Of a DNA stretch of 49,202 nucleotides, positions 6,459-24,029 are shown one piece after another. Under the pieces are notes generated by a model. That model saw nothing but the letters and a program-made list of their open reading frames with translations. It did no database searches and was not told the DNA's origin. The position numbers were made by a program, and so were the translations under genes. Numbering within the stretch: the first letter of the stretch is position 1; every line of letters begins with the position of its first letter. Source of the DNA: an uncultured Lachnospiraceae bacterium. Its GTDB lineage: Bacteria > Bacillota > Clostridia > Lachnospirales > Lachnospiraceae. The stretch spans positions 1-49,202 of the forward strand of contig CACYBK010000079.1 in assembly GCA_902772635.1 (NCBI GenBank). Reading direction: 5' to 3'.

Positions 6459-6556
6459 GTGACACGGGGACGGTTCTTTTGAGTGACACGGGGAATGACA
6501 CGGGGACGGTTCTTTTGTCACCATTAGGTGACAAAAGAACCGTCCCCGTGTCACTC
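6457..6556. repeat. GGGGACGGTTCTTTTGTCACC palindrome with partial tandem copies; likely bidirectional terminator
   Basis: Arms 6493-6522 and 6527-6556 match at 29 of 30 positions with a 4-nt loop. The arm reads GTGACACGGGGACGGTTC and continues TTTTGTCACC. Two partial copies in the same orientation precede it (6457-6480 and 6481-6494). The element occupies almost the whole convergent gap between mnmA (stop 6458) and the phosphatase gene (stop 6568), a position where it would terminate both genes. Confidence 0.9.
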
Positions 6557-6567
6557 CCGGCTGCGTT

Positions 6568-8145
6568 TCACTTCTTCCCGTGCCAGCACAGCGCCAGCAT
6601 TGTAATATCATCAAACTGAGGCGCTTCTTTTACGAAAGCGTCTATATCAGCCTTCACATTTGAAAGGATCTTCTCCGGGTCTTCCTCTATCCTGCTGTTA
6701 AGCGCTTCAACGAGTCTCTCCGGTCCGTACAGCTCATTTTCAGCATCGGTGGCTTCTGTCACACCGTCCGTATGGACAAAGAGTATGTCCCCGGGATGAA
6801 GCTCAAATTCGTGCTGCTCAAAGGGAAGACCCTCCATTATCGCAACAGCAACTGAATGAGGATAGACTACAGGTTCATATTCTTCACCGACTCGCTTGAG
6901 CACCGGATTCTCATGTCCCGCGTTTGCGGCAATTCCTTTTCCCGTTGAAATCTCTATTATCGCCATCCAGACTGTGACAAACAGCTGGGATTCATTACCC
7001 TCGCAAAGCTGATCGTTTGCGTATGAAAGGACTTCCGAAGGTGAGCCCCCAAGCTGTGCGCGGTTTTTGATAAGGGTCTTTGCGATGACCATGAAGAGCG
7101 CCGCAGGCACTCCCTTTCCGGACACGTCCGCGATGACAAGTGCGAGATGATCGTCGTCCACCATGAAAAAGTCATAGAAGTCGCCGCCCACTTCTTTTGC
7201 AGGCGTCATTGTGGCATAAATATCAAATTCCTTTCGCTCAGGGAAGGGCGGGAATATACGGGGGAGCATGTCTGCCTGTATCTGTGTCGCGACATTGAGC
7301 TCCGACTCGATACGTCCCTTCTCGGCAGAGATCGCGGCATTTTCCTGGATGTAATGCCTGATGTCGCCGTACATTTTCGTGAAGGAATCGGCGAGTGCTT
7401 CAAGCTCATCGCCTGTATGTATATCGATAGCCGGCAGGTCATCCTTTTCAAGAGAGTCTGCCATCTTTCCGGCTGCATCATTCAGCCGGTGTATCGGAGT
7501 CACGATCTTCTTGCGAAGCGAAAAGTAGAAGACTATTCCTGCAAGCACCGTTGCGACAAGTATCGTGAGGCAAAGGGTACCGATGAAAGCAAGGAAGCTC
7601 CGCTCGATGTCATTGGCGGAAAGATCAAGACCGACAAGCGCCACAGGCTCTCCCGAACTGTCAAAGATCGGATAAAAGCCGCAGGCGATATGGCCGTAGG
7701 TCGGATCTCTGTAGAAACTTATCTCCTGGATGGGGTCCTTTCTGAAGGATTTTTCACGGGCTTCCTTGCCGCCGTCCATGTAGGCCTCGCGCTTCCCGAG
7801 CCACGAATAAGGATCGTCATCCGTCTGCCATACATAGACGAGGTCGTTTTTGTAAGGCACGAAGACATAGAAGAGCTGCATTGCAGTCTCATTCCTGGTC
7901 ACAGTCAGATAGCGGAGCACCTCGTCATAATATTCATCGGGCTCCAGTGTCTCAACATAGCCCTTTATGCGGTCTCCGTCTATATAGTTCGACGCTGAAC
8001 GAAGATAACCGTATACAAGAGAATTGTAATCATTGATGCTGTCCTTGTAATACCAGGCTCCCGTAAATATCCCGGCAAACATGACTATCATCGCCGCAAA
8101 CAGGTACAGACGAGTCTGTACTTTTCTTTGGATCCCACTTTTCAT
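6568..8145 (-). CDS. Membrane-anchored SpoIIE/RsbU-type PP2C serine phosphatase with HAMP domain
   Basis: A 525-residue sensor phosphatase. It has TM1 at about 13-32, an extracytoplasmic sensor of about 150 residues (Cache-like, Y-R-D-P-T-Y-G region), TM2 at about 185-208, HAMP to about 262, a short coiled coil, and a SpoIIE-type PP2C domain at about 300-525. Metal-binding Asp motifs are visible: G-G-D-F-Y-D-F-F, I-A-D-V-S-G-K-G, H-T-D-G-V-T-E and D-D-I-T-M-L. Proteins of this type dephosphorylate STAS anti-anti-sigma factors. A STAS partner is encoded at 20263-20553. Its ATG overlaps the stop of the upstream acyltransferase gene (ATGA, 8142-8145), so the two are translationally coupled. Confidence 0.92.
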   Translation of the reverse strand: MKSGIQRKVQTRLYLFAAMIVMFAGIFTGAWYYKDSINDYNSLVYGYLRSASNYIDGDRIKGYVETLEPDEYYDEVLRYLTVTRNETAMQLFYVFVPYKNDLVYVWQTDDDPYSWLGKREAYMDGGKEAREKSFRKDPIQEISFYRDPTYGHIACGFYPIFDSSGEPVALVGLDLSANDIERSFLAFIGTLCLTILVATVLAGIVFYFSLRKKIVTPIHRLNDAAGKMADSLEKDDLPAIDIHTGDELEALADSFTKMYGDIRHYIQENAAISAEKGRIESELNVATQIQADMLPRIFPPFPERKEFDIYATMTPAKEVGGDFYDFFMVDDDHLALVIADVSGKGVPAALFMVIAKTLIKNRAQLGGSPSEVLSYANDQLCEGNESQLFVTVWMAIIEISTGKGIAANAGHENPVLKRVGEEYEPVVYPHSVAVAIMEGLPFEQHEFELHPGDILFVHTDGVTEATDAENELYGPERLVEALNSRIEEDPEKILSNVKADIDAFVKEAPQFDDITMLALCWHGKK

Positions 8146-9287
8146 GAAGCCTTGACCTCTCTACGTTTCATAGACAATCTTTCCCAGAGGAGTGAAAGCG
8201 GATACGTTATCAGGAAGATAATGAGCGACAGCAGAAGTGTCGGTCCGATCGGAAGATCCTGCGTGCCTCTGATGCTGTAAAGCACAACATTTGTAAGCAT
8301 TACAACAAAGAACCAGTGGATCACGTAAACACGCGTGATATTACGGCTCAGGCTTACGACAAATTTCTTCAAAAAGCCCGGCATTATCTTCATTGCAAAA
8401 TAATATGCTCCGAGAATGCCGATGGCGAAGGCCACGTAGCCGATCGCATCATACCAGAGCGCGTGATAATAGCAGTTTTCACTGAAAAGAAGCGTCTCGC
8501 CGCTTGCCATCTGCCCGAATTCGAATTTGTATTCGATCACGAAGAAAGCGACCGAAGCGATCAGCGGGATAGGAAAGAGGCGAAGATAAAAGCTCTTCTT
8601 GTCATTGATATACAAAAGCAGCTTTCCGAAAAGATAACCGCACAGCGGGACTATGAACCAGTTGAGCAGCGGGAAATCCGACATGACATAAAGCCCTGCG
8701 CTATCCTCCGTTCCGATGAAGTGACCGAGCGCGATATTTGCTGCATTATTTCCGGTATCAAAATGGCGTATGAAGGAACCTGCAACAGACATCAAAACGG
8801 CGACAAGAAGCATCCATCTGTCCTTCAGTTTGAGATACTGAAGGAAGCCGAACAAAAGGAAGAAGAGCCCTGCGAACTGAAGCACGTCGTTTCCGAACAC
8901 GCGGTAGGGCAGTGGAGTGATGAATTTGTCTGCATCCTGTGTGATCGCATATCCGGTGAGATAAGGAATCAGGAAGCGAAGTACATTCAGGAGGAAGCCC
9001 GCGATAAAGAGAAAGAGCCCTCGTCTCATATTTTCGGCGGGGGTGTGTTTTCTCGAGAAATTGATGCAGGCGCCCATCGCAAAAAGAAACATCGGCGCTC
9101 CGAGCGGCTGACCTATTATGATATTGAAAAAGAACGGGATCGGCTCGTAAATGCGGTCGACCGGCGTACACTCTATTACAGTATGGACAAACGGGAGAAA
9201 GAACACAGGGACCGCCCTCGCAAGGTCGAACTCGTACTGCCTCCCATTGTTGACCGGAGAATCCGAAACAAAATCTCGTAATGACAA
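8142..9287 (-). CDS. Multi-pass membrane acyltransferase-like protein
   Basis: A 381-residue integral membrane protein with about ten hydrophobic helices. The opening Y-E-F-D-L-A-R-A followed by F-F-L-P-F-V-H and a later F-L-F-A-M-G resembles the acyltransferase-3 / heparan-alpha-glucosaminide N-acetyltransferase-like (DUF1624) superfamily, which moves acyl groups across or onto membrane-exposed substrates. The start is a TTG at 9285-9287 with AGAAGG 7 nt upstream. It forms a coupled pair with the RsbU-like phosphatase and diverges from the MATE-NRPS run. It could acylate a cell-surface glycan or the peptide product; neither is shown. Family assignment is moderate and substrate unknown. Confidence 0.7.
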   Translation of the reverse strand: MSLRDFVSDSPVNNGRQYEFDLARAVPVFFLPFVHTVIECTPVDRIYEPIPFFFNIIIGQPLGAPMFLFAMGACINFSRKHTPAENMRRGLFLFIAGFLLNVLRFLIPYLTGYAITQDADKFITPLPYRVFGNDVLQFAGLFFLLFGFLQYLKLKDRWMLLVAVLMSVAGSFIRHFDTGNNAANIALGHFIGTEDSAGLYVMSDFPLLNWFIVPLCGYLFGKLLLYINDKKSFYLRLFPIPLIASVAFFVIEYKFEFGQMASGETLLFSENCYYHALWYDAIGYVAFAIGILGAYYFAMKIMPGFLKKFVVSLSRNITRVYVIHWFFVVMLTNVVLYSIRGTQDLPIGPTLLLSLIIFLITYPLSLLWERLSMKRREVKAS

Positions 9288-9386
9288 AATAATACCTTCT
9301 TTTCAGTATCCAAATTTGAACGTATCATTTCCCATTTTACTCTTATCTTTTCTTTTTTTCCACCTACTATTAAAAATGGTCCCGGA

Positions 9387-9454
9387 AATGGTCCCAGGGG
9401 ACGGAGTCGAGGGACCATTAAAATGACCCCTCGACTCCGTCCCCTGGGACCATT
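9387..9454. repeat. GGGGACGG palindrome immediately upstream of the MATE-kinase gene
   Basis: Arms 9387-9413 and 9428-9454 (27 nt) are perfect reverse complements with core CCAGGGGACGGAGTCGAGGG. The 14-nt loop is ACCATTAAAATGAC. A broken extra copy (AATGGTCCCGG) precedes it at 9375-9385. The right arm ends 14 nt before ATG 9469, where no ribosome binding site is visible. It differs from 23701-23983 by one base of the core (TCGAGGG versus TCAAGGG). Confidence 0.9.
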
Positions 9455-9468
9455 ATAATAAAAGCACT

Positions 9469-11226
9469 ATGGAAAGAAACGACAGACTCATCAGAAAAAA
9501 GATCAAAAGATATATGCTGACGGGGGTCATGACGACAGTTGCGCTGCAGCTGGGGAATGTGGTTGACGCGATGATCGTCGGAAATCTTCTTGGGAGCATG
9601 GGAAACGGCGCCATCAATGCGTCCACGCCGTTTCTTTATATCCTGCAGGCCGCAGCTATTTTGATGGGGTCGGGAGGCGCCGTCAGTATAGCCATACTTC
9701 TTGGAAAGCGCGAGATCGATTCCGCAGGAAGGGTAATGGGACTTTGCATAGTCACAAGCCTTGTCTACCCTTTGATATTCACCTGTCTGTCTCCTTTGAT
9801 CGTGCCGCTCTACACGGGGCATTTTTCGGCCGCACCACAGCTTTTTGAAATGGTCAGGAGCATAACAACTGTTTATTCCCTTGGCATGCCGATAATATCC
9901 TTCGTTCTCGTGATGGCCTATCTAATAAATGTGGATAATAATCCCGGTATGGCGACAAAGCTGCATATTACTTCAAATGCCGTAAATCTCGTCCTTGACT
10001 TCATCCTGGTAAAATTCACGCCCCTTGGCATAACAGGGGCCGCGTTGTCAACTGTCATCGGGTATCTCGTGGCGGGGCTCATCTTTATCCCGCGTTATTT
10101 CAAAAGCAGCGGCCGGATGGTCACTCCGGTGTTCAAGGGACTTTTCAAAAGCAAAGACCTTGGCCTCTCGACTGTAAAGAACGGCTTCCCGAATCTTGCC
10201 TACCTTGTAATGACAGTGATCAGCGTCTCGATCCTCAATTCAAATATCATAAGAGTTCTCGGCGATTCATATTTTTCCGCCTATTCAGTCACGGCAAATA
10301 CCCAGCTCATAGTCCAGATGTTTTTGAACGGTGTTTCATCCACTATTGCCTCAGTAGCCGGCGTGCTCTTCGGAGAAAAGGATTACTTTGGAATGCGGCG
10401 GGTATTTTCGCGCGTGATGAAGATCGCCCTGCTCATCAGCCTGATCATAATGGCGGTCTTCCTGATAGTCCCGCAGGGCGTTGCGGCGCTTTACGGTTTT
10501 GACAATGATAATGTAAGAGGGGAGCTTATGACCGGTATCCGCCTGTTCTCAATGAGCTTTGTCTTTTTCTCGCTTAATGCCCTGACGCAGAACTACTACA
10601 GGACGATCGGTCAGACCTTCCTTTCAACCATAAGCAGCGTATTTCAGCTTCTTTTGCTGAAGATACCTTTGATGCTTGCATTCATGCATATCTTCGGCTT
10701 TACGGGGCTTTTTGCCGCTATAATAATGAGCGAGCTTTTGGCCTTTATCATCGTAAATATTTTGAGGCTTATCATGCAGCATGCAAAAAAGGTCCCGCAA
10801 AAGGGCTTTCTCGCGATACCGGAAAAGAACGAAGGAGCGATCTTAGATATTTCGATTTCCGGCAGCGACAAGGAGGCGGTCCGGGTTTCGGAAAGGATAA
10901 TAGACTACTGCCGAAATGACGGGATATCGGAGAGTAATGCGCAGACTCTCGGAATAGCCGCAGAGGAGCTCATTGACAATATTGCAAGACACGGCTACAG
11001 GGAATCAGAGGATAAGGATATAGATGTCTGTCTTTCCAAAACAGAAGGGAAGTATTATCTTCGGCTTCGTGACGACGGGATGCCCTTTGACCCTGCCGCC
11101 TATGTGCCTGAGGAAGGCGAAGAAACTGAGTTTGGGGGGCTTAAGATGTTAAAGAGTATGGGGGTAAGGATGAATTACGTCAGAACGCTGAATCTGAACA
11201 ATACAGTGATTGAGGTAAAAATATAG
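9469..11226 (+). CDS. MATE-family efflux transporter fused to an RsbW-like ATPase/kinase domain
   Basis: A 585-residue protein, about 130 longer than a normal MATE transporter. Residues 1-435 carry about 12 TM helices with MATE features (V-V-D-A-M-I-V-G-N-L-L-G near the N-terminus). Residues about 465-585 form a GHKL/HATPase_c_2 domain of the anti-sigma kinase type: the N-box A-E-E-L-I-D-N-I, then D-D-G-M-P-F-D-P, then G-G-L-K-M-L. RsbW-type domains phosphorylate STAS proteins and bind partner proteins. The gene sits 39 nt upstream of the NRPS gene and presumably exports its product, while the tail may sense or set phosphorylation of the STAS protein at 20263. There is no clear ribosome binding site before ATG 9469, because the palindrome lies there; a later in-frame Met16 is the alternative start. 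Confidence 0.9.
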   Translation: MERNDRLIRKKIKRYMLTGVMTTVALQLGNVVDAMIVGNLLGSMGNGAINASTPFLYILQAAAILMGSGGAVSIAILLGKREIDSAGRVMGLCIVTSLVYPLIFTCLSPLIVPLYTGHFSAAPQLFEMVRSITTVYSLGMPIISFVLVMAYLINVDNNPGMATKLHITSNAVNLVLDFILVKFTPLGITGAALSTVIGYLVAGLIFIPRYFKSSGRMVTPVFKGLFKSKDLGLSTVKNGFPNLAYLVMTVISVSILNSNIIRVLGDSYFSAYSVTANTQLIVQMFLNGVSSTIASVAGVLFGEKDYFGMRRVFSRVMKIALLISLIIMAVFLIVPQGVAALYGFDNDNVRGELMTGIRLFSMSFVFFSLNALTQNYYRTIGQTFLSTISSVFQLLLLKIPLMLAFMHIFGFTGLFAAIIMSELLAFIIVNILRLIMQHAKKVPQKGFLAIPEKNEGAILDISISGSDKEAVRVSERIIDYCRNDGISESNAQTLGIAAEELIDNIARHGYRESEDKDIDVCLSKTEGKYYLRLRDDGMPFDPAAYVPEEGEETEFGGLKMLKSMGVRMNYVRTLNLNNTVIEVKI

Positions 11227-11265
11227 GACAGTAATATTAATAGCAGGAAACGACAGGAGGGGAAA

Positions 11266-14200
11266 ATGCAGGAATATGTAAGGCTTCTTTTGGAAGCAGG
11301 GGAAAACTTTTCAAAGAATCCCGCTCTCATAGACCGCAGGGGTGAGAGAGTCACGGATTACAAAACCTTTTCATTATTCATGAAAAAGGCCGCCTCGTGG
11401 ATATACAAAAAAGGACTCACGGAGAGGTCCTTCATCCCGGTGAGGCTTGAGTCCTCGATGGAGTATGCGGCGTGCGTCTGCGGGATCTGGCTTTCCGGGC
11501 ATATCGCGGTCCCGATGGGGGCTTCATTTCCGGCTGAGCGCGTCAAATATATATGCTTAAACTGCGAGGCTCCCTTCATAATCGATGAGGATGCCGTTAA
11601 AGAGATAATGGAGCAGGAGCCTCTTGATATATCCGTATTCCCTGAATCAAAGGACAGTGACACCGCGCTGTTACTCTATACCTCAGGCTCGACCGGAATG
11701 CCGAAGGGCATACTTCATACCTTTGAGGGACTTCTTAACAACCAGCGCATGGGGAACCGGCCCGTATACGAGACGGGGCAGGCCTGGGCCATGGGCGCTC
11801 CCTTTTATTTTGTCGCATCAGTGGCAGTCTACAAGGTGCTTACCATGGGAGGCGCCGTGCATCTTCTTGATGAAGAGACGATGCGCGATGTCGGAAAGCT
11901 TGAAGAATATTATGCCGCCCACCATATCACTGTCGGCTTCATAAGCCCGTCAGTCCTTTCAAATTTCCACAGCCGGGACGAGTCACTGAAGATTGTCATG
12001 ACAGGAAGCGAGAGGCTTACGGGACAGTGCAGCAGAGAGGGCTACAAGCTCTTCAACAATTACGGGATGAGTGAGACCATGGGCACGGTCTGCTCCTTCC
12101 TTGTGGACAAGCCCTATGATACAACTCCGGTCGGGATACCGCCGGAAACCTCTGTCTGGGCGCTTCTTGATGATAATATGGATCCGGTCAAAGACGGCGA
12201 AGAGGGAGAATACTGTACAAAGGGGCCTTACACAAAAGGCTATTTCAAGGATCCAGAGGCTACCGAAAAGCTCTTCAGAGGCGGCTGGCTTCATACAGGC
12301 GATATCTTAAAAAAGCTTCCCGACGGAAACCTCGTCTATATCAACCGAAAGGACTGGATGGTCAAGATCAACGGACAGCGTGTTGAGCCCGGTGAGATCG
12401 AAAACGTCCTTCGGGCACTTCCCGGAATTTCAGGAGCTGTTGTGAAGGCAGTCAAGGGAGCGGGAGGACAGGTGGTTCTCTGCGCTTATTACACCGGAGA
12501 GAGTTTTTCTGATGATGAACTTTCTGAAAAGCTTTCAGAAAAACTTGCGCCCTACATGGTGCCCGGATTTTTCACCCATCTTGACAAATTCCCCATCAAT
12601 CAAAACGGAAAGATAGACAGAAAGAATCTTCCGGAGCCTGATATCATGAGCAGGAGAGCAGAATATGCGCCTCCAAAGAACGACACGGAGTCCATGCTCT
12701 GCCGGGCTTTTGAGGACGCACTTTCGGCGAGCCAGGTCGGAAGAGATGATGATTTCTTTTCGATGGGCGGCGACAGCATAAGGGTAATGAAGCTTATCAC
12801 AGCCTGCCCTGAGCTTGACCTTACAAGTAAACAGGTCTACGCATTAAGGACTCCCGCGAAGATAGCGGAGGAATGCATCAAAAAAGGCTCTTCGAAGGTA
12901 AGGGAAAAGAAGGACAGATACCCTCTTTCATCCTCACAGCTTGGTATCTATATCGAATCCATGAACCGGGACGGGGAGGCGGTTTACAACAATCCTATCC
13001 TCCTTCGGCTTTCCGATTCGATCGATATGGAAAAGCTGGCACGCGCCTGTGAGGCAGTAGTGGCGGCCCATCCCTTTATCAAGCTTTCCCTTGAAACCGA
13101 CGAAAACGGGGATCCGATCCAGGTCAGACGGGACGACGAACCCTATAGCCAGGCGATAGAGCACCTTTCAAAAAAGGAATTTGAAGAAATAATGCCGACT
13201 CTTCAAAAGCCCTTCAGACTCCTTTCTGACAAGCTTTTCAGGATCCGCCTATTTGAAGTTGGGGAAAAGAAATATCTCTTTACGGATCTTCATCATATTA
13301 TCTTTGACGGTTCATCAATGCTTGTAATGATAAAGGATCTTGAAAGAGCCTACCTCGGCGGAGAGCTTGAACGCGAGACCTATAGCGGCTTTGAAGTCGC
13401 AGAGGACGAGAAGGAGAAGCGTGATGAGCTCTATGAGGATGCGAGAAAGTGGTATCTTGACACCTTCTCAGGAGTGGAGGCTGACAGTCTTCCGATCCCT
13501 GACAAAAACGAAAAAGAAATGTCATTTGGGGTAAGAACTCTTGATCTTGCACTTGAAGCGTCGGAGGTTGAAGCACTTTGCCAGAGGTGCGCTGTCACTG
13601 AGAATATCTACGCGACTGCTGCCTTCGGACTTTTGATGGGGCTTTACTCAGGCATGAACGAAGCCCTGTTTTCAACGATATACAACGGTCGCGATTCCCT
13701 TCGCACAAGGCGAACGATCGGAATGCTCGTAAAGACATTACCTGTATACAGCCGCTTTGAAAAGGATGAAGAGGTAAGGGATTATCTTCAAAAGGCAAGG
13801 GAGCAGATGCTTTCCTGTATGAACAATGACATCTATCCCTTCTCTGAGCTTTCGGCGGAGACCGGGATCACAAGCCGGCTCCTCTTTGTATATCAGGGCG
13901 ATGTGCTCAGTGTCGGCGGCTTTGCGGGAGAGCCGGTGGAGAGGATACCGTTGATGGACAATGCCACCGGAGAGTTTCTCGCGATCCAGATGTATCGGCA
14001 GGACGGCACATACAATGTCCGTGCCGAATACAGGAGCGATATGTATTCGGAGGAATTTGTCGATATCATCCTCCGGAGCTTTGAGACTGTCCTTAAGAAG
14101 ATGCTTTCAGCAGAGACGGTTGGAGAGATATCGGTCTCAAGCTACATTGAACTTGAAAGGCTGCACGAGCTGAACAGGACTGAGAGCGACTACGACAGGT

Positions 14201-17200
14201 CAAAGTCCGTGGTCGATCTCTTCAGGGAGGCAGCAGGAAAGTATAAAGATAATATCGCTGTCATCTATGAGGACGAGGAATGCACATACGAAGATGTTGA
14301 CAGGATTTCGGACAACATAGCTTTCTTTATTGAAAAGCAGGGACTTTCGAGGGGAGATGTTGTATCGATCCTGATCCCGAGAGGTGTATATCAGGCAATC
14401 GCCTCTCTTGGAGCGCTAAAGGCAGGCTGCGCTTATCAGCCGCTTGATGCCACCTATCCGCCTGAGAGGCTCAACTTCATGATAGAGGATGCGGCGGCAA
14501 AGCTTCTTATCACAACAGATGAGCTTTCCGGCCTCGCAAACAAATATGACGGAAAGAGGCTGACACTTAATGAGATCGATAGTCTTTTGGATGGAAAGCC
14601 CAAAAACGATCCGGCGCCCGAAGACACCTTTATCCTTCTTTATACCTCCGGCAGCACCGGAGTTCCGAAGGGCGTGAGGCTTACTCACAGAAACCTTGTC
14701 TGCTTCATAAACTGGTATATAAAATTTTACGAGCTTTCGGAAAAGGACAGGGTCGGGCAATATGCCTCATACGGCTTTGACGCCTGCATGATGGATATGT
14801 ATCCGGCGCTCTCGGCGGGGGCTGCGGTCTGCATCGTTCCGGAGGAGATGAGGCTCGATCTCAATGCCATGAACGATTATTTCATAAGGCACCGGGTCAG
14901 CCTTTCCTTCATGACGACACAGGTGGGGCGGCAGTTTGCATCTGAGATGGAAAATCCTTTTCTTCGCGCGATCTCAGTCGGCGGAGAAAAGCTCGCGTCG
15001 ATGGAGCCGCCGAAGGGAGTCAATTTCTATAATCTCTACGGACCTACGGAATGTACCATCCTTGCCACGATCTATCCCGTAACGAAAAGGGAGGATAATA
15101 TCGCGATCGGGCATCCTCTTTCGGATGTTAAATGCTATGTGGTCGATCCTTTCGGACATCTGCTTCCGCCCGGTGCTCTGGGCGAGCTTGTTATCGCGGG
15201 GCCTCATGTGGGAGCGGGTTATCTCAACAGGCCTGAAAAGACGGCTGAGGTATTTATCAAAAATCCGTATGATACAGGTGAATATGAGAATGCCTACAAG
15301 ACCGGCGATATTGTACGTTTCAGGACAGACGGTGAGATAGAATTCATCGGACGAAGGGACGGACAGGTGAAGATCCACGGCTTCCGTATCGAGCTTTCAG
15401 AAGTCGAGGCTGTGATCCGCGATTTCCCCGGAATAAAGGATGCAGCAGTTGTCGCAAAAGATCTTGGAGCGGACGGAAAGGCAGTAGCTGCATACTTTGT
15501 CGCGGATGAGACCATTTCACCCAAAGATATCTCAGAGTTCATAAGGGAAAGAAAACCGCCCTACATGGTGCCTGCTTCCATCATGCAGCTTGACAAGATT
15601 CCCTTGAACCAGAACGGAAAGGTGAACAAAAAGGCGCTTCCGGAGCCTGTGATCGAGGCCGCTGAGGAAGAGAGCGCTCATGTCGACAATGTCCTTGAGA
15701 AGGAACTGAAGAAAATGATTGGCGAAGCTCTCAATATGGAAGAGCCGCCTCTTAATACCGCGCTTGAATATCTCGGCTTTACGAGCCTTTCCATGATCAG
15801 GCTCTCAACAAGGCTGTTCAAGGGCTTTGGCGTCAATATTCCCGTAAAGGAGATGAAGGACAAGACCATTACCGATATTGAAAATCTCATCCTTTCAGAG
15901 TGGATCAAAGGACAGGGCGCAGGAGCGAAAGAGCAGAAAGAGACAGATATAAAGAATTCGCCGCTTTCCGCTTCACAGAGCGGGATCTATGTGGACTGCA
16001 TGAGAAATCCCGATCTTACTACCTACAATATCCCGTCAGTTCTCACTTTCGTATCTTCCACAGAGCCTGAAGACCTCATAAAGGCACTTGGCAGCATATT
16101 GAAAGCCCACCCTTCGTTGTTTGTGCATTTTGATATCATCGACAATCAGGTCATGGCTATACGGGATGAGGTCAGCCTTCCTGATATTCCTGTGCTTTCC
16201 TTGAGTGAGGAGGAATGTAAAGCGTTCAAAGACAGCTTTGTAAAGCCCTTCCATCTGAACAGGGGACCGCTGTTTGATCTCGCGGTTGTAAAGACTCCTG
16301 AAAATGTGAAGCTTTTTACCGATTTCCATCATCTCGTATTTGACGGCTTTTCAATGAGCGTGTTTTTGAAGGAGCTTTCAAAGACACTTAAAAAGGGCGG
16401 TGAGATTGAAACTGAGGGAGCCTCATATTTCACCTATGTCAGGAATCAGAAGGAAATGCTGTCTTCCGACGCAGGGGCTTCTTATGAAAAATATTTTGAA
16501 GAGCTACTGTCAGATTTTGAATCGACTACAGAGCTTCCCGCGGATCTGAGAAACGAAAGCGCGGATGGAAACAAGCGCTTCTTGTATAAGGACATCGATG
16601 AGTCCCTGACCGGGGCATTCTGTAAGACACCGGGGATAGATGAGCCGGGGCTCTTCCTTGCGGCGCTTGACTATACTCTGGCAAGGCTCACAGGCTCTGA
16701 TAATGTTTATATCACGACGATCTCAAGCGGAAGAAGTGATGTCCGTTTTTCAGAGACATTTGGAATGTTTGTAAATACGCTTCCCCTTGCCGCAAAGCTT
16801 TCGGATGGAAGCGTTTTGGACTTTGTAAGGGAGGTCAGTGCAGGACTTTCAAATGCCATAGCGCATGAGAATTATCCATTCGCAGATATAGCCGCAAAAT
16901 GGGGCTTTAACGCAAATGTGATGTATGAATATCAAAGGGGTGTGGTTGAAAAGCCCGATATCCCGGGGCTTTCATCGGTAGAGGGGATAGAGTCCGGAAA
17001 GAGCAAATTCGGTATTACTGTAAGGATAATCGACAGAGATCAAAAAGCAGCAATAGAAGTTGAATACAATGACGCCCTGTATTCTGAAAATGCGATAGAG
17101 GAATTCCTGAAATCCTATTCTATTGTGATCGAAAAATTTGAGACTCAGGGCCGTGACAGGCTTCGCAGCATCACGCTTCTTGACAGTGAAAGAGAAGAAG

Positions 17201-20200
17201 AGCTTTCGGGCTTCCGTGAGAGGCCTGAAAAAGCGGATATTCCGGAGGATATTCTTTTTCATTCAGGAATAGAGCGCTTTGCAGGCATTATGCCGGAGAA
17301 GCTTGCTATCACTGCCTGTGACGGGGATTATACCTACAAAGAGCTTGATGAAAACGCGAACCGCGTTGCAAACGCTCTTATCAAGAGGGGCGTAAATAGA
17401 GGCAGCAGGGTGGTGCTCCTTCTTCCGAGGACAGCAAGAGTATTCTTCGCGCTCTACGGCGTATTAAAGGCGGGAGGCGCCTATATTCCCTGCGATCCGA
17501 CCTATCCCACGGAGAGGATCAAGCATATCATCGATGACTCAAATGCCGCTCTTGTAATAACGGATTCTGAGAGGCTTTTACGTTTTTCCGAGAGACCGGT
17601 GGTCGACATAGAGGAACTTCTCAAGGAGGAAAACAAAGAGAAACCGGATGTAAAGATAACGCCCGATGACCTTGCCTATCTCATCTACACCTCGGGCTCC
17701 ACCGGAAAGCCGAAGGGCGTTATGCTGAGGCACAGAGGGATAGTGAATTATGTCACCGATCACAAAGAAAATATCCTCGTGCATGGAATGGTTGAAAGAG
17801 GCCATGTCATTACGGCAGTGACTACATTATCTTTTGACTTTTCAATAAAGGAGTGGGGAGCGCCTCTCTTTAACGGCCTCACCCTTTCCTTCGCGGCAGA
17901 TGATGAGACAAATGATGCGCTGCGTCTTGCGGCGAGGATGAAGAAGACCGGGACCGATATTTTCAGCTCGACTCCTTCAAGGCTCCTTACATTGATGGAG
18001 TCTGGTGAATTCAGAGAGGCGCTTTCAAACTGCGTAGTGGTAATAAACGGCGGCGAGAAATATCCGGAGCAGCTTCTTAAACTCCTGAAGGAGAAGAAGG
18101 ACAGGCTCATATTCAATACCTACGGGCCTACTGAGACGACTGTATCATCAAACACCCAGGAGCTTTCAAACTATGATACTGTAAATGTCGGACGCCCGCT
18201 TCCGGGCGTTAAGGAGTTCATAGTAGACTCTGACGGAAACGAATTGCCCTGCAATGTGACAGGAGAGCTCTATATAGGCGGGATCGGCGTTGCGGCAGGC
18301 TATAATGATCTGCCGGAGATGACAGCCGAGAAATTCGTGGATTACAATGGCATTCGGATCTATAAGTCCGGCGATTTCGCGCGCTGGACGAAGAAGGGCG
18401 ATGTCGAGATCCTCGGGCGAAAGGACAATCAGATCAAGCTCCGCGGCCTTCGTATAGAACTTGATGAAGTCGATGCGGTCCTTTCGTCGCAGCCGGGAAT
18501 TGAGCGTTCTGCGATAAAGATCGAAAAGATCAACGGCATAGAGCATCTCTGCGCCTGGTTTACAGCGGATCACCCTGTCAATATCGGAGAGCTGAAAAAA
18601 GAGCTTTCAAAGACGCTTACGAATTACATGGTGCCTACTGCCTATATGCAGCTTGATGAAATGCCCTATACTCCAAACGGCAAGCTTGACTTAAAGAACC
18701 TGCCGATCCCTGAGCTTTATCGATCAGGTAACAGCGAGGCCGCCGAAAATGAGACAGAGAAGGTCTTTTGCGACATCTTCGGAAGGCTCCTTCATGTGGA
18801 AAATGTAGGCGCGACCGAAAACTTCTTTGAGCTTGGCGGTACATCGCTTCTTGTAACAAATGTGGTCATCGAGGCGGGAAACGCAGGCTATACGATCGCA
18901 TTCGCCGATGTATTTGACAATCCTACTCCAAGAGCCCTCGCATTGATCGCAGGCGGTACTTCAGAAGGCAAAGGCGCGGGCGCTTCCGTATCTTCGGACA
19001 GCGGGATCACAGATTATGACTACGGAAAGATCGATGAACTCCTTCAGAAAAATACGCTTTCAAGCTTTAAGGAAGGCAGCCTCCGGGAGCTTGGAAACGT
19101 GCTTCTGACCGGGGCTACGGGGTATCTCGGGATCCATATCCTGCATGAGCTGATCGAGAATGAAAGCAAGGAAAACAAGATATATTGCCTCCTTCGCTCA
19201 CAAAAGGATCTGACTGCGGCGGACAAGCTCCTTCGGCTTTATTTCTATTATTTTGATAAAAACCTTGAAGAGCTTGTCGGGAAGCGGATCTTTGTTGTGG
19301 AAGGGGATGTTACGGACGCTTCAGTTCTCGATGGCATTATCGATAAGGAGATAGACACAGTAATAAATTGTGCGGCCGTTGTAAGGCACTTCGCGAGCGG
19401 TACCCAGATCGAGGACGTAAATGTTGGAGGGGCTGTAAATCTCATAGATTTCTGCCTTAAGAAAAATGCGGCCCTCATCCAGACCTCTACCATGAGTGTT
19501 GTAAGCTCGGCTTATAAGGACAGCATTCCGGAAGGATTTTTGCCTGACGAGAAGAGCCTTTACTTTGATCAGCTTCTCGAAAACAAATATATTCATTCGA
19601 AGTTCCTTGCGGAGCGCGCAGTGCTTGAGGCAGTGGCTGAAAAGGGCCTTCGGGGAAAGATAATGCGCTACGGAAATCTTGCGGCAAGGCACTCGGACGG
19701 GGAATTTCAGATCAATTTCTCAACAAATTCCGCGATGGGGAGGCTGAAAGCCTTTGTAATGCTCGGCTGCGCTGCCTTTGAACAGCTTGATACGACAATG
19801 GAGTTTTCACCGATAGACGCGGTGGCAAGGGCTACGGTCGCGCTTTCAAAGACTCCGGAGACTTGCACGCTTTTCCATGTTTTCAACAACCAGAATATCT
19901 CAATGGAGGGCATCTTCAGCGAGCTCAACAATCTCGGGTATGAAATTGACTACGTTGAAAGAGAGGAATATGCAAAAGCCTTTCAAGCGGCCCAGAATGA
20001 TCCCAAGAGGGCGGCATCACTTACAAGCATCATGGCTTATATGCACTCACCCGGCGGACGGGAGACGGTAAGGCTTACGCGGCAGTGCGAATACACGATG
20101 CAGGTGCTCTATCGGCTGAAGTTTGCATGGCCCGTCACAACCTGGGATTATATTGAACGCTTTGTATCGACACTTAGCGGGCTTGGATTTTTTGAGGAAG

Positions 20201-20220
20201 AGGAGCCGGCTGGCGAGTGA
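11266..20220 (+). CDS. Three-module nonribosomal peptide synthetase, A-T-C-A-T-C-A-T-reductase
   Basis: A 2984-residue megasynthetase in one frame. A1 covers about 1-460 (Y-T-S-G-S-T-G near 139, N-G-K-I-D-R-K at 447). T1 has Ser504 in M-G-G-D-S. C1 spans about 550-980, with intact H676-H677-I-I-F-D681-G. A2 spans about 985-1460 with Asp1172, then T2 with Ser1507 in L-G-F-T-S. C2 spans about 1560-1990 with H1688-H1689-L-V-F-D1693. A3 spans about 2005-2480 with Asp2191, then T3 with Ser2527 in L-G-G-T-S. A C-terminal NAD(P)-binding thioester reductase runs from about 2600 (T-G-A-T-G-Y-L-G at 2615-2622; Y2775-xxx-K2779). There is no epimerisation domain and no starter C domain. In A1, Val183 replaces the Asp that binds the amino group (Asp235 in GrsA), whereas A2 and A3 keep it. 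By manual alignment the specificity residues read VAAFVTNGT (A1), DAMTSGLIL (A2) and DFKSIGTVS (A3); I do not assign substrates. Reductive release predicts an acyl-dipeptide aldehyde or alcohol. Good ribosome binding site (AGGAGGGG). Confidence 0.95.
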   Translation: MQEYVRLLLEAGENFSKNPALIDRRGERVTDYKTFSLFMKKAASWIYKKGLTERSFIPVRLESSMEYAACVCGIWLSGHIAVPMGASFPAERVKYICLNCEAPFIIDEDAVKEIMEQEPLDISVFPESKDSDTALLLYTSGSTGMPKGILHTFEGLLNNQRMGNRPVYETGQAWAMGAPFYFVASVAVYKVLTMGGAVHLLDEETMRDVGKLEEYYAAHHITVGFISPSVLSNFHSRDESLKIVMTGSERLTGQCSREGYKLFNNYGMSETMGTVCSFLVDKPYDTTPVGIPPETSVWALLDDNMDPVKDGEEGEYCTKGPYTKGYFKDPEATEKLFRGGWLHTGDILKKLPDGNLVYINRKDWMVKINGQRVEPGEIENVLRALPGISGAVVKAVKGAGGQVVLCAYYTGESFSDDELSEKLSEKLAPYMVPGFFTHLDKFPINQNGKIDRKNLPEPDIMSRRAEYAPPKNDTESMLCRAFEDALSASQVGRDDDFFSMGGDSIRVMKLITACPELDLTSKQVYALRTPAKIAEECIKKGSSKVREKKDRYPLSSSQLGIYIESMNRDGEAVYNNPILLRLSDSIDMEKLARACEAVVAAHPFIKLSLETDENGDPIQVRRDDEPYSQAIEHLSKKEFEEIMPTLQKPFRLLSDKLFRIRLFEVGEKKYLFTDLHHIIFDGSSMLVMIKDLERAYLGGELERETYSGFEVAEDEKEKRDELYEDARKWYLDTFSGVEADSLPIPDKNEKEMSFGVRTLDLALEASEVEALCQRCAVTENIYATAAFGLLMGLYSGMNEALFSTIYNGRDSLRTRRTIGMLVKTLPVYSRFEKDEEVRDYLQKAREQMLSCMNNDIYPFSELSAETGITSRLLFVYQGDVLSVGGFAGEPVERIPLMDNATGEFLAIQMYRQDGTYNVRAEYRSDMYSEEFVDIILRSFETVLKKMLSAETVGEISVSSYIELERLHELNRTESDYDRSKSVVDLFREAAGKYKDNIAVIYEDEECTYEDVDRISDNIAFFIEKQGLSRGDVVSILIPRGVYQAIASLGALKAGCAYQPLDATYPPERLNFMIEDAAAKLLITTDELSGLANKYDGKRLTLNEIDSLLDGKPKNDPAPEDTFILLYTSGSTGVPKGVRLTHRNLVCFINWYIKFYELSEKDRVGQYASYGFDACMMDMYPALSAGAAVCIVPEEMRLDLNAMNDYFIRHRVSLSFMTTQVGRQFASEMENPFLRAISVGGEKLASMEPPKGVNFYNLYGPTECTILATIYPVTKREDNIAIGHPLSDVKCYVVDPFGHLLPPGALGELVIAGPHVGAGYLNRPEKTAEVFIKNPYDTGEYENAYKTGDIVRFRTDGEIEFIGRRDGQVKIHGFRIELSEVEAVIRDFPGIKDAAVVAKDLGADGKAVAAYFVADETISPKDISEFIRERKPPYMVPASIMQLDKIPLNQNGKVNKKALPEPVIEAAEEESAHVDNVLEKELKKMIGEALNMEEPPLNTALEYLGFTSLSMIRLSTRLFKGFGVNIPVKEMKDKTITDIENLILSEWIKGQGAGAKEQKETDIKNSPLSASQSGIYVDCMRNPDLTTYNIPSVLTFVSSTEPEDLIKALGSILKAHPSLFVHFDIIDNQVMAIRDEVSLPDIPVLSLSEEECKAFKDSFVKPFHLNRGPLFDLAVVKTPENVKLFTDFHHLVFDGFSMSVFLKELSKTLKKGGEIETEGASYFTYVRNQKEMLSSDAGASYEKYFEELLSDFESTTELPADLRNESADGNKRFLYKDIDESLTGAFCKTPGIDEPGLFLAALDYTLARLTGSDNVYITTISSGRSDVRFSETFGMFVNTLPLAAKLSDGSVLDFVREVSAGLSNAIAHENYPFADIAAKWGFNANVMYEYQRGVVEKPDIPGLSSVEGIESGKSKFGITVRIIDRDQKAAIEVEYNDALYSENAIEEFLKSYSIVIEKFETQGRDRLRSITLLDSEREEELSGFRERPEKADIPEDILFHSGIERFAGIMPEKLAITACDGDYTYKELDENANRVANALIKRGVNRGSRVVLLLPRTARVFFALYGVLKAGGAYIPCDPTYPTERIKHIIDDSNAALVITDSERLLRFSERPVVDIEELLKEENKEKPDVKITPDDLAYLIYTSGSTGKPKGVMLRHRGIVNYVTDHKENILVHGMVERGHVITAVTTLSFDFSIKEWGAPLFNGLTLSFAADDETNDALRLAARMKKTGTDIFSSTPSRLLTLMESGEFREALSNCVVVINGGEKYPEQLLKLLKEKKDRLIFNTYGPTETTVSSNTQELSNYDTVNVGRPLPGVKEFIVDSDGNELPCNVTGELYIGGIGVAAGYNDLPEMTAEKFVDYNGIRIYKSGDFARWTKKGDVEILGRKDNQIKLRGLRIELDEVDAVLSSQPGIERSAIKIEKINGIEHLCAWFTADHPVNIGELKKELSKTLTNYMVPTAYMQLDEMPYTPNGKLDLKNLPIPELYRSGNSEAAENETEKVFCDIFGRLLHVENVGATENFFELGGTSLLVTNVVIEAGNAGYTIAFADVFDNPTPRALALIAGGTSEGKGAGASVSSDSGITDYDYGKIDELLQKNTLSSFKEGSLRELGNVLLTGATGYLGIHILHELIENESKENKIYCLLRSQKDLTAADKLLRLYFYYFDKNLEELVGKRIFVVEGDVTDASVLDGIIDKEIDTVINCAAVVRHFASGTQIEDVNVGGAVNLIDFCLKKNAALIQTSTMSVVSSAYKDSIPEGFLPDEKSLYFDQLLENKYIHSKFLAERAVLEAVAEKGLRGKIMRYGNLAARHSDGEFQINFSTNSAMGRLKAFVMLGCAAFEQLDTTMEFSPIDAVARATVALSKTPETCTLFHVFNNQNISMEGIFSELNNLGYEIDYVEREEYAKAFQAAQNDPKRAASLTSIMAYMHSPGGRETVRLTRQCEYTMQVLYRLKFAWPVTTWDYIERFVSTLSGLGFFEEEEPAGE

Positions 20221-20262
20221 GTTACATAATGAACTGTCGTTATTAGAGGAGGATATTTAAAC

Positions 20263-20553
20263 ATGACTATCGAAAAGACAATTGATGGAACAGAAGCTAC
20301 GCTTGCAATAGAAGGATGGCTTGACACGAATGCGGCGCCGGAGCTTCTTAAAGCGCTTGATGAGCTTGAATCTGACACGGAGAGTCTGGTACTTGATCTC
20401 AAAAAACTTGAATATATCTCATCATCCGGAGTAAGAGGGATAGTTTCCGCATACAAGAAGATGAACGGGGCGATCAAAGTAAGAGGGGCTGCTCCCGGCA
20501 TCATGAGCATATTCAAGGCCACCGGCATCGACAAAAAGCTGAGCTTTGAATAA
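20263..20553 (+). CDS. STAS-domain anti-anti-sigma factor (SpoIIAA/RsbV-like)
   Basis: A 96-residue single STAS domain: beta-strand start, L-V-L-D-L-K-K-L-E-Y-I, then S53-S54-S55-G56. In SpoIIAA/RsbV the matching stretch is D-S-S-G with the first Ser phosphorylated, which is S54 here; the usual Asp is replaced by S53. Phosphorylation by an RsbW-like kinase and dephosphorylation by a SpoIIE/RsbU phosphatase would switch partner binding. Both activities are encoded beside it: the kinase domain on the MATE gene and on 20572-22563, the phosphatases at 20572-22563 and 6568-8145. It is 42 nt after the NRPS and has a strong GAGGAGG site, so it is probably in the same operon. No sigma factor is visible as final target. 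Confidence 0.92.
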   Translation: MTIEKTIDGTEATLAIEGWLDTNAAPELLKALDELESDTESLVLDLKKLEYISSSGVRGIVSAYKKMNGAIKVRGAAPGIMSIFKATGIDKKLSFE

Positions 20554-20571
20554 AAAGGAGGTTTTACTGCC

Positions 20572-22563
20572 ATGGGGGGAAAGAAGAAGCCGAGAATATC
20601 ATTGTTGGCGCGCACAGCGCTCTTTTTCCTGCTGACACTTTTTCTCTCCCTCCTGGTAGTACTGCTTTTTGCAAGAAAGTATGTATTCGAAGATGCCATT
20701 TCGCGGAGCTACGCGATCTCCGCGGGAGCGGCAACCGCGGCAATGACCTCCCTTGGTTCAGCGGATGGCCTTTATGAGCTCTTTTTCGATGAGGAATACA
20801 GGGACAGTGTACACAAAACCTTTCAGTTCATATGCAAAAAAACCGCGACGGATATTATTTATCTTTATACCGTCGACGAGGACCAAAGAAGACATTATAT
20901 AGTCACTGCCGCAAAAGATGATGAAATAGATGCGATAATTCAGGATACGATAAGCTTCGACATGGTGGATGACGAAGAGCTTTATCCCGCTGAAGTCCGC
21001 GTTCTGGAAGGAAGATCGGACGGTGAGCATGAATTTTATCATACTGACAGTGGCTATATGTGCATGTTCGTGCGTCCCGTCATTTCAGATGGGAAGGTCA
21101 TTGCCTTAATAGGCGCTTCTTATGACGCGGACGATATCATTGATGAGTCAAAGAAAAACCTCTATTTCATCGCGGGGCTTGTGATCCTTGTTTTCTCGAT
21201 CGCCCTGATAAGCTCGCTCATCCTTATGCGAAAGTCCATCTTTGTCCCGGTGAGATCGCTGTCCAAAAGTATGCGAAGCTTTACAAAGAATATTGACAGC
21301 CCGGTTCCAAAGAGGAAGACCAACTTTTCGGATGAGATCACCGATATGGAAAGCTCATTTTACGAGATGACCGAGAATATGCGTGAGTACGTTGATGAGA
21401 TCAAGACTCTTACTTCTGACAAGGTGCAGGTGGAGACGCAGCTTGATGTGGCAAGGAGGATACAGAGCGGCCTTATTCCAATGGAGCACTTTGTACTTGG
21501 GGACGGCTGCGAGATCTATGGCATAGAGAAGCCTGCGAGGGCGGTAGGCGGAGACTTTTACGATATCTTCCGGCTGGATTCGGATCGTATCTGTGTCGTC
21601 GTCGGAGATATTTCCGGCAAGGGCGTATCGGCGGCCATGTTCATGGTCATGGTAAAAACCGGGATCAGGGAGAATATAAAGGGTGGACGGTCACTCGCTG
21701 AGACATTCTCCTCCCTTAATCGGGAGATCTGTTTTTCGAACCCCGAGACTATGTTCGCGACAGTGGCTGCCATTATCCTTGATACAAAAACAGGGGTAAT
21801 AAAGTATTTGAACGGAGGACACGAACTGCCGCTATTACTCTCGAAGGATACGGAGTATCTTGAACTTGACGCAGGCTGCGCTCTCGGACTCTTTGATGAC
21901 GCGAATGCCGGGGAAAAAGAGATAAGGCTTTCTGACGGAGAGGGACTTCTCATTTTCACGGATGGTGTGACTGAAGCCAACGACGCTGAAAAAAACCAAT
22001 TTGGAAAGGATCGCTTAAGGGAGCGTGTAAGAGATTATTATTCGGGATACGGGAACCGGTATGAAAGCGAAGGTCTCATAAAGGATCTGATGTCGGGCGT
22101 AAGCGGCTTTTGCAAGGATGCGGAGCAGTTTGATGACATTACCTGTGTTGCGCTCATCTACCGCGACAATGAAAAGGAGAGAAGAAGACTTACAATGGAT
22201 CTTGCTTCTTCGCTTCCGGTGCTCAGGGACACGATCTTTGGTGGTATCGATGACGAGGAGCGGGCAAAGACTATCATTCTCGTATGCGAGGAGATATTTA
22301 CAAATATTGTGAATTATTCCGGGGCAAAGAATGTAAGCTTCTACTTTGAGCGGACAGAGAAGCTCTGCGCCGTAACATTCTTTGACGACGGAGTTCCCTT
22401 CGACCCTGTAACCGTAAACCTCCGTGACAAGGCCTTTGAGGAGCTCGATACGGGCGGCATGGGCATCAGGCTCGCCCGGATGAACACAAAGGAGATGGTC
22501 TACAACCGCATAGACAACACAAACCAGCTGGTCCTTCGGTTCGAAACGGAAACGCAGCCCTAA
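20572..22563 (+). CDS. SpoIIE-type phosphatase fused to an RsbW-like ATPase domain
   Basis: A 663-residue membrane protein. It has TM1 at about 9-33, an extracytoplasmic sensor of about 160 residues, TM2 at about 199-222, HAMP at about 222-275, and a PP2C/SpoIIE domain at about 300-535 (G-G-D-F-Y-D-I-F, V-G-D-I-S-G-K-G, F-T-D-G-V-T-E, D-D-I-T-C-V). A C-terminal HATPase_c_2 domain spans about 540-663 (C-E-E-I-F-T-N-I, D-D-G-V-P-F-D-P, G-G-M-G-I). It therefore combines a predicted STAS phosphatase with a predicted STAS kinase. It follows the STAS gene by 18 nt with an AAGGAGG site. The TAA stop is the first part of a terminator palindrome. It has the same sensor-HAMP-PP2C layout as the phosphatase at 6568-8145 but adds the kinase tail. 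Confidence 0.92.
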   Translation: MGGKKKPRISLLARTALFFLLTLFLSLLVVLLFARKYVFEDAISRSYAISAGAATAAMTSLGSADGLYELFFDEEYRDSVHKTFQFICKKTATDIIYLYTVDEDQRRHYIVTAAKDDEIDAIIQDTISFDMVDDEELYPAEVRVLEGRSDGEHEFYHTDSGYMCMFVRPVISDGKVIALIGASYDADDIIDESKKNLYFIAGLVILVFSIALISSLILMRKSIFVPVRSLSKSMRSFTKNIDSPVPKRKTNFSDEITDMESSFYEMTENMREYVDEIKTLTSDKVQVETQLDVARRIQSGLIPMEHFVLGDGCEIYGIEKPARAVGGDFYDIFRLDSDRICVVVGDISGKGVSAAMFMVMVKTGIRENIKGGRSLAETFSSLNREICFSNPETMFATVAAIILDTKTGVIKYLNGGHELPLLLSKDTEYLELDAGCALGLFDDANAGEKEIRLSDGEGLLIFTDGVTEANDAEKNQFGKDRLRERVRDYYSGYGNRYESEGLIKDLMSGVSGFCKDAEQFDDITCVALIYRDNEKERRRLTMDLASSLPVLRDTIFGGIDDEERAKTIILVCEEIFTNIVNYSGAKNVSFYFERTEKLCAVTFFDDGVPFDPVTVNLRDKAFEELDTGGMGIRLARMNTKEMVYNRIDNTNQLVLRFETETQP

Positions 22564-22592
22564 TGGTCCCCCGGGACCATTTTATTTTTTTG
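22562..22592 (+). terminator. Intrinsic terminator built from a short member of the GGTCCC palindrome family
   Basis: AATGGTCCC (22562-22570) and GGGACCATT (22573-22581) pair around CC and run straight into a T-rich tract (to 22592). It overlaps the stop codon of the phosphatase gene and probably ends the MATE-NRPS-STAS-phosphatase transcript. The same AATGGTCCC start is used by the long palindromes at 9387 and 23701. Confidence 0.8.
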
Positions 22593-23586: not shown

Positions 23587-23700
23587 CGGAAATATGAGGG
23601 TATTGTTTGGGAAAAGCGAGTATTTCCCTGAAGATGATGAGGATTGAGAAATGGTCCCCCGGGACCAGTAGAAGTCAAGTGATCAATTTCACTGTTAAGG
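23587..23700. repeat. Repeat-containing gap, including a short GGTCCC palindrome
   Basis: No gene is seen in this stretch. It holds AATGGTCCC-CC-GGGACCA at 23650-23668, a near copy of the terminator at 22562, without a T tract. It leads directly into the long nested palindrome at 23701. Confidence 0.6.
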
Positions 23701-23983: not shown

Positions 23984-24029
23984 ATCGTATGTGATGTTGT
24001 GTATCATTATATGAATCGAGGTTTATAAA

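Follow-up and report, generated by a model that had tools for sequence, protein, structure and literature searches.

A MATE exporter with a SpoIIAB/RsbW-fold tail, encoded with a nonribosomal peptide synthetase and partner-switching genes in a Lachnospiraceae bacterium: a possible pump target for a STAS protein

We have analysed a 16 kb block of DNA from an uncultured Lachnospiraceae bacterium (NCBI GenBank assembly GCA_902772635.1), in which a MATE-family exporter with an RsbW-like C-terminal tail is encoded next to a nonribosomal peptide synthetase (NRPS), a STAS protein and a SpoIIE-type phosphatase that carries an RsbW-like domain of its own. The block is part of contig CACYBK010000079.1, whose 49,202 nucleotides are referred to here as the window; the window is contig C79 of an assembly of 2.06 Mb that is 81% complete and consists of 159 contigs. 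The six genes at positions 6568-22563 had been called in an earlier note made from the sequence alone, and Pfam confirms their coordinates and domains (Table 1). Four of them form an operon-like run on the + strand (9469-22563), in the order MATE with tail, NRPS, STAS and SpoIIE-HATPase, with gaps of 39, 42 and 18 bases; kinase, phosphatase and STAS protein, i.e. the parts of a partner-switching system, are therefore encoded together.

Table 1. Features of the locus: positions in the window, strand and supporting evidence
Feature	Position	Strand	Evidence
MATE exporter with C-terminal SpoIIAB/RsbW-fold tail (P0001)	9469-11226	+	Pfam MatE 6.7e-18, HATPase_c_2 1.9e-11
Tail of the MATE exporter, residues 455-585	10831-11223	+	RsbW fold; N-box Asn and DxG present, G2-box GxG lost
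NRPS, A-T-C-A-T-C-A-T-reductase (P0006)	11266-20220	+	Pfam
STAS protein, phosphorylatable Ser54 kept (P0004)	20263-20553	+	Pfam STAS 2.9e-11
Membrane SpoIIE phosphatase (residues ~281-530) with RsbW-like kinase domain (531-663) (P0002)	20572-22563	+	Pfam SpoIIE, HATPase_c_2
HAMP and SpoIIE (RsbU-like) membrane phosphatase (P0003)	6568-8145	-	Pfam HAMP 6.3e-07, SpoIIE 1.3e-46
Membrane acyltransferase, Acyl_transf_3 (P0005)	8142-9287	-	Pfam 1.7e-09
Inverted repeat (arms of 33 nt) in the gap that separates the divergent units	9387-9454	.	Repeat search
16 kb block, not at the matching site of the congeneric genome G004	6446-22583	.	blastn boundaries

The exporter belongs to the MATE family both by its MatE domains and by its predicted fold: the AlphaFold model of the whole protein (pLDDT 83.7) has MATE structures as its top matches in the PDB, the first of them with a TM-score of 0.85 to the target. 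The tail, modelled by itself (pLDDT 86.7), has the SpoIIAB/RsbW fold, since ranks 1-6 of the PDB fold search are all SpoIIAB or RsbW chains (TM-score to the query 0.69-0.77): the best matches are the SpoIIAB entries 1l0o, 1til, 1th8 and 1tid (1l0o_A with E 9.7e-07 and TM-score 0.76), then RsbW 6m37 at rank 6, while UsfX (8ih8, rank 8) and the histidine kinase 4r39 (ranks 7, 9 and 11) are found lower down. The PDB sequence search with the tail alone is weak, with RsbW at E 0.12.

The ATP-binding motifs of the tails have been compared with those of separate HATPases. The alignment contains the tails of 73 MATE genes of at least 540 aa, found in searches with P0001 and the tail profile A1 and including the near-copies window/L041 and L126/L128, and 30 separate HATPases (stand-alone, SpoIIE-fused or STAS-fused), which were drawn from the fetched loci and some of which are not located beside a tailed MATE. 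The asparagine of the N box occurs in 51/73 tails and in 30/30 separate HATPases, and the DxG of the G1 box in 21/73 and 29/30; the GxG of the G2 box occurs in 29/30 separate HATPases but in 0/73 tails, with L032 and L044, whose tails are beyond the reach of the HATPase profiles, unaligned at that place. All three boxes are thus complete in none of the 73 tails and in 29/30 separate HATPases; the thirtieth, L218, is in fact a split MATE tail. Among 70 further tails from a contig scan, the last 75 residues contain no GxG pattern, which brings the count of GxG at the G2 place to 0/143 (73 by alignment and 70 by pattern); where the pattern does occur in the whole domain, in 10 of the 70, it is always located in the linker, the first helix or the N-box region, and never at G2. 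The PDB sequence of RsbW puts GGLGL opposite the G2 box of a solo kinase.

Because the three ATP boxes are never complete in the 73 tails, while they are complete in 29 of the 30 separate HATPases, the tail of the window, which also lacks the G2 GxG and with it the full N/G1/G2 set of an RsbW/SpoIIAB kinase, is best called a pseudokinase and is, judging by these motifs, probably not a kinase. The earlier note had taken it for the kinase of the switch; the intact motifs are instead located in the SpoIIE-fused HATPase at 20572-22563. The loss of motifs does not mean a loss of constraint: between the window and the congeneric genome G004, the ratio of nonsynonymous to synonymous substitution rates (dN/dS) is 0.13 for the tail, against 0.085 for both the MATE part and the NRPS and 0.092 for STAS. 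It is higher in the SpoIIE-HATPase protein (0.23), and highest in the sensor part of that protein (0.41). The low value of the tail places it under purifying selection. The glutamate of the N box is kept in 72/73 tails; in a published model of SypA and SypE (PMC10120452), Glu48 of the kinase touches the phospho-serine of the STAS protein, and the tail glutamate may be its equivalent. The tails also carry marks that are unseen in the aligned separate kinases, such as a cysteine at alignment position 61 (59/73) after a phenylalanine (62/73). A very common type of tail (L145-L223 of the contig scan and many tails of the family) has a cysteine where the G1 box otherwise has its glycine (DDC or DNC), and bears the signature EEMAGN; this G1-site cysteine is at least 90% conserved in alignments of 46 rows, while the tail of the window has glycine there.

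The other components of the switch have intact motifs. The STAS protein aligns with SpoIIAA (1auz) and others over a serine that we take to be the phosphorylated one of SpoIIAA, and a phosphorylatable serine is present in 50/50 STAS proteins near tailed MATEs (Ser54 in the window). The kinase domain of the protein at 20572-22563 has complete N, G1 and G2 boxes (EEIFTN, DDGVPF and GMGI), as expected of an RsbW-like kinase; its PDB sequence search returns only SenB (E 0.025). Both SpoIIE proteins of the window contain GGDFYD, [GA]D[IV]SGKG, TDGVTEA and FDDIT, which we use as the metal-site motif set of PP2C-type SpoIIE/RsbU phosphatases. Beside other tailed MATEs, a STAS-APH fusion (~395 aa) or a STAS-APH-HATPase fusion (~525 aa) recurs (L148, L150, L163, L168, L195, L221 and others; the domains were checked with Pfam in L148 and L163), and in L109 a separate APH gene is located between STAS and pump.

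The NRPS consists of three AMP-binding domains, two Condensation domains, three PP-binding stretches and a terminal NAD_binding_4 reductase domain. The nearest NCBIfam model is that of the aureusimine synthetase AusA (NF047350), with a score of 1319 bits that lies well under the cut-off of 2500, so that the protein is not an AusA equivalog; judging by the domain order, the product would be a short peptide that is reduced at its C-terminus, probably a tripeptide aldehyde. Elsewhere in the genome of the window, a MATE gene for 754 aa with an extra N-terminal part (L032, G000:C71, 2230-4494) adjoins an NRPS fragment.

Tailed MATE exporters are widespread among related bacteria. With a threshold of E 1e-12, and with stand-alone HATPases counted as well, the tail profile matches 54/250 genomes of the family (249 genera); at 1e-15, it matches 31/295 genomes of the order and 12/398 of the phylum. 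A named-genome scan with the close subset yields at least 561 relatives, the best 80 of which are mostly from metagenome-assembled genomes of the ruminant gut, called Lachnospiraceae, Erysipelotrichaceae, Solobacterium, Oscillospiraceae and others; 70 of the 80 contig-scan loci have a MATE gene of at least 540 aa, and one of the 80, from Sarcina sp. DSM 11001 (L180), carries no MAG label in its record. In the plasmid collection, the 20 records listed of 58 are all ordinary MATE relatives with less than 30% identity. A tree of the MATE parts without their tails, built by a quick method and containing two long rows (L032 and L037) that group with each other, splits the 73 tailed from 45 untailed MATEs at a single branch (SH-aLRT 96), and places the exporter of the window in a clade of 16 (SH-aLRT 99), 13 of which have an NRPS or GH3-type gene nearby.

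Clustering of the proteins encoded around the tailed MATEs, without any prior choice of families, has SpoIIE at the top (33 loci), followed by a group of ABC-ATPases (27), STAS (25), a mixed STAS-APH/APH group (20), NRPS (18), solo HATPase (13) and GH3 (9). Within four genes of the 73 tailed MATE genes (67 loci), there are STAS genes for 20, SpoIIE for 22, a solo kinase for 13 and any of these switch genes for 30, as well as NRPS for 16, GH3 for 10 and LPG_synthase-like genes for 3; any NRPS, GH3, LPG_synthase-like or reductase-ending adenylation gene is found for 29/73, and a switch and a ligase gene together for 15, an association that is not significant within the tailed set (p 0.15). Around the untailed controls, the same distance contains switch or ligase genes for 0/45 MATE genes (40 loci), with the reservation that these controls rank high among the untailed matches to P0001, come partly from other genomes, and were scored with domain profiles trained on the tailed loci. 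Among the 70 tailed genes of the contig scan, 23 have a switch gene and 2 a ligase gene nearby. The switch genes also thin out with distance, from 17/142 neighbours at one gene and 20/126 at two to 15/216 at three to four, 2/277 at five to eight and 0/81 beyond, against 0/618 neighbour genes of the untailed MATEs; the fall is weaker in the contig-scan set (13/132 at one gene, 11/327 at five to eight and 2/90 beyond). The clustering of switch genes around tailed MATEs exceeds chance.

The earlier note had named co-occurrence of these genes in other genomes as a check, and it is observed: a tailed MATE, an NRPS and a STAS gene occur in one run in the window, in G004 and in four other genera (L040, L096, L109 and L116). 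Conservation of all four genes together is a narrower matter, since the + strand four are kept in G004 (90-92% DNA identity), while outside the genus the full set is seen once, in L116, where the gene order is that of the window and SpoIIE is cut by the contig end, and otherwise in parts. The outcome that the earlier note had named as refuting its idea, a lack of joint conservation of the four genes, thus does not hold for the + strand four. In a genome of the genus of the window, a solo kinase gene and a SpoIIE gene flank a reductase-ending NRPS on a contig of 5.6 kb (L084). Bacterial GH3-type acyl-amide synthetase genes are found near tailed MATEs in ten loci (L035, L045, L107, L112, L122, L123, L126, L128, L135 and L136; GH3 was checked with Pfam in L035 and L045), several of which also contain STAS, SpoIIE and a solo kinase.

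The comparison with G004 divides the block into two units. The + strand part (window 9469-22542) corresponds to 9.6-22.7 kb of contig C17 (39.8 kb) of G004, at the identity given above, while the RsbU/acyltransferase part (6568-9304) corresponds to 18.3-21.1 kb of contig C21 (36.3 kb), with 94% DNA identity; P0003 has a copy there that is 97% identical, and the acyltransferase stays paired with it. The flanks of the window (to 6445 and from 22584) are ~150 bp apart on contig C27 of G004, with neither block between them. Because its halves are on C17 and C21 while its flanks adjoin on C27, the 16 kb block, to which the coordinates of the earlier note correspond closely, consists of two separable units, and the four-gene + strand unit holds together; both assemblies are fragmented (159 and ~130 contigs), which leaves misassembly as a residual risk. 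The divergent RsbU-like phosphatase is thus a separable neighbour and not clearly a member of the circuit, and we have rejected the proposal of the earlier note that two membrane sensors set one linked circuit. The SpoIIE-HATPase gene is followed by a DUF6033 gene in the window and by a GGDEF-EAL gene with overlapping ends in G004 (L042, 2674-4152). Palindromic repeats are located in the window at 855-931, 6488-6558, 9387-9454 and ~23700-23985; several of them recur many times in G004, on either strand, and one stops just ahead of the left unit of the island.

Partner switches usually end on a sigma factor. As the earlier note had claimed, the locus appears to encode none: five phmmer sigma queries (E 1e-4) find no sigma-factor-like open reading frame of at least 60 aa in the window, although divergent ones may escape such a search, and the tailed MATEs show no enrichment, with 3 sigma-like open reading frames in 152 scanned loci against 2 in 40 control loci. 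The wider screen for orphan sigma factors gives a partial answer: in the genome, which is 81% complete, there are six sigma-70 region-2 matches outside the window, and no STAS, SpoIIE or solo RsbW gene is found near any of the six in the fetched stretches. Five of these proteins, all but the one on C137, were scanned against NCBIfam: one is RpoD, two resemble FliA/WhiG, one resembles SigI and one is a SigM-like ECF sigma factor, and none of the five reaches the SigB, SigF or SigG cut-offs. On contig C14, ~11 kb separate a divergent FliA/WhiG-like sigma gene and a tailed MATE gene (L296/L034, G000:C14). If the system were an ordinary switch whose sigma factor is encoded outside the locus, the tail would only titrate the STAS protein and export would be unregulated; the six region-2 matches, the incomplete genome and a further pair of RsbW-like genes, on C54 and C123, whose motifs are intact and which could act in trans, are in keeping with this, while the sigma results just given speak against it, and the fusion of the domain to a pump would be left unexplained. 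A distant sigma target is therefore unlikely, and we consider this explanation as a whole to be decidedly improbable.

The explanation that we prefer is that a peptide-exporting MATE pump is set by partner switching through its pseudokinase tail; judged on sequence evidence, its chances of being right and of being wrong are about equal. In the membrane protein at 20572-22563, the N-terminal part would sense a signal, the RsbW-like domain would phosphorylate Ser54 of the STAS protein, and the SpoIIE domain would take the phosphate off; the unphosphorylated STAS protein would then bind either the SpoIIE-fused kinase domain or the SpoIIAB-fold tail of the pump. Binding to the tail would change the activity of the pump, so that export would follow the outside signal; we guess that the pump would be switched on rather than off. 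The NRPS would make the short C-terminally reduced peptide, and the pump would export it. The earlier note had proposed that the STAS protein controls either export or synthesis: a switch without a sigma factor, probably aimed at export, and the conservation of its genes elsewhere agree with that proposal, while the tail as kinase and the two sensors in one circuit are the parts of it that we abandon.

Several observations weigh against this explanation. Both the N-box asparagine and the DxG are kept in 18/73 tails, including that of the window (Asn and DDG), and tails of this kind may, by their motifs, still bind ATP and have weak kinase activity. In L040 and L109, a STAS gene is present and no other RsbW-like gene is found in the fetched stretch. 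The STAS protein of the window scores under the NCBIfam cut-offs for an anti-sigma antagonist (TIGR00377, 46.7 against 53.45 bits) and for SpoIIAA (TIGR02886, 30.4 against 114.75 bits). As many as 43/73 tailed MATEs, and 47/70 of the contig scan, have no switch gene within four genes (L041 is scored among the 43, while its STAS and SpoIIE-HATPase genes sit in L042), so that either their partners are encoded elsewhere or their tails have another role. A further candidate regularity, that the loss of the N-box asparagine goes with a solo kinase nearby, has been rejected: the raw counts (9/13 against 13/60, Fisher p 0.0016) derive mainly from two clades, and an independent-pairs test on the tree, in whose labels L108 is scored differently (14/60, p 0.0025), gives it no support.

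The first two of these observations, together with the Pfam score of the tail as HATPase_c_2, favour a different arrangement, in which the tail would itself phosphorylate the STAS protein, as an active RsbW-type kinase, and the pump would serve as sensor, so that the substrate load or transport state would set STAS phosphorylation and, through it, the NRPS or transcription. We regard this as unlikely, since the GxG of G2 is found in 0/143 tails, the asparagine and DxG are kept together in the minority of tails counted above, and the full motif set is carried by 29 of the 30 separate RsbW-like domains. The many tailed MATEs that have no switch gene in reach, and the conserved marks of the tails' own, such as the Cys after Phe at alignment position 61, would fit a tail whose role in this MATE branch is a general one, in the sensing of nucleotides or ligands or in stability, the closeness of STAS and SpoIIE being a matter of gene-cluster building and not of contact. 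This too is rather unlikely: the best fold matches of the tail are STAS-binding kinases, and switch genes thin out with distance from tailed MATEs and are absent around the 45 untailed ones.

The pump-docking arrangement that we prefer shares most of its parts with known systems. With the RsbV/RsbW/RsbU and SpoIIAA/SpoIIAB/SpoIIE switches of Bacillus, it has in common a STAS protein with a conserved serine, an RsbW-like kinase and a SpoIIE/RsbU phosphatase, and the tail has the fold of SpoIIAB; unlike them, the locus has no sigma factor, its kinase and phosphatase form one membrane protein, and one RsbW-fold copy, without the G2 glycines, is fused to an exporter. In SypA/SypE of Vibrio fischeri, as is proposed for the window, a single protein with kinase and phosphatase domains sets the STAS protein (PMC8256260, PMC10120452), and by analogy the SpoIIE-HATPase membrane protein is probably both writer and eraser of the STAS phosphate; SypE differs in having a receiver domain, the opposite domain order and no exporter fusion, and the STAS protein SypA is the downstream part, its target being called unknown in PMC8256260. 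Direct action of STAS or STAS-like proteins on an enzyme is described for HsbA-HsbD, BgrV-BgrR and SiaC-SiaD (PMC8457831). These pairs resemble the proposed circuit in that a STAS-type protein acts on an effector other than a sigma factor, but their effector is a diguanylate cyclase and not a pump. We know of no RsbW-fold docking domain in these cyclases. Among NRPS systems, AusA, which has two modules, and the dipeptide-aldehyde NRPSs of the gut share the reductase end with the three-module NRPS of the window, and indigoidine is an NRPS product as well. Dipeptide aldehydes of gut Lachnospiraceae are mentioned in PMC10794557, and in Vogesella indigofera an RsbW-like domain is part of the two-domain regulator TciR, which affects indigoidine production with a target called unknown in PMC12826045; TciR is a receiver-RsbW response regulator without an exporter fusion, and its genome is said there to have no RsbV homolog. 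In searches of open-licence PMC papers, we have found no description of a MATE-RsbW fusion. The parts belong to known families or come close to them; what appears to be new is an RsbW-fold pseudokinase fused to an exporter as the probable output of a switch.

Extended to the other tailed exporters, the proposal would be that a whole branch of the MATE exporters of the phylum bears an RsbW-fold pseudokinase on which STAS proteins dock, and that partner switching gates export post-translationally, the cargo being a nonribosomal peptide in the sub-branch of the window and probably conjugates made by GH3-type enzymes or aminoacyltransferases in others; we put this forward tentatively, with its chances somewhat short of even. 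The STAS-only proteins SypA, RbaV and HmpV act unphosphorylated, and their targets are left open or called unknown in a 2021 review (PMC8256260). The fusion of a partner domain to a pump in this genome points to a candidate target for such STAS proteins, and the tailed pumps of many related bacteria could be a missing target of partner switching. The motif rule, i.e. an RsbW fold without GxG, offers a way of finding docking targets among HATPase_c_2 proteins. If the proposal is true, it would add a new class of output to partner switching and give the ‘orphan’ STAS proteins a named target, and the export of small peptides by gut and rumen bacteria would be tunable by an outside signal without new transcription.

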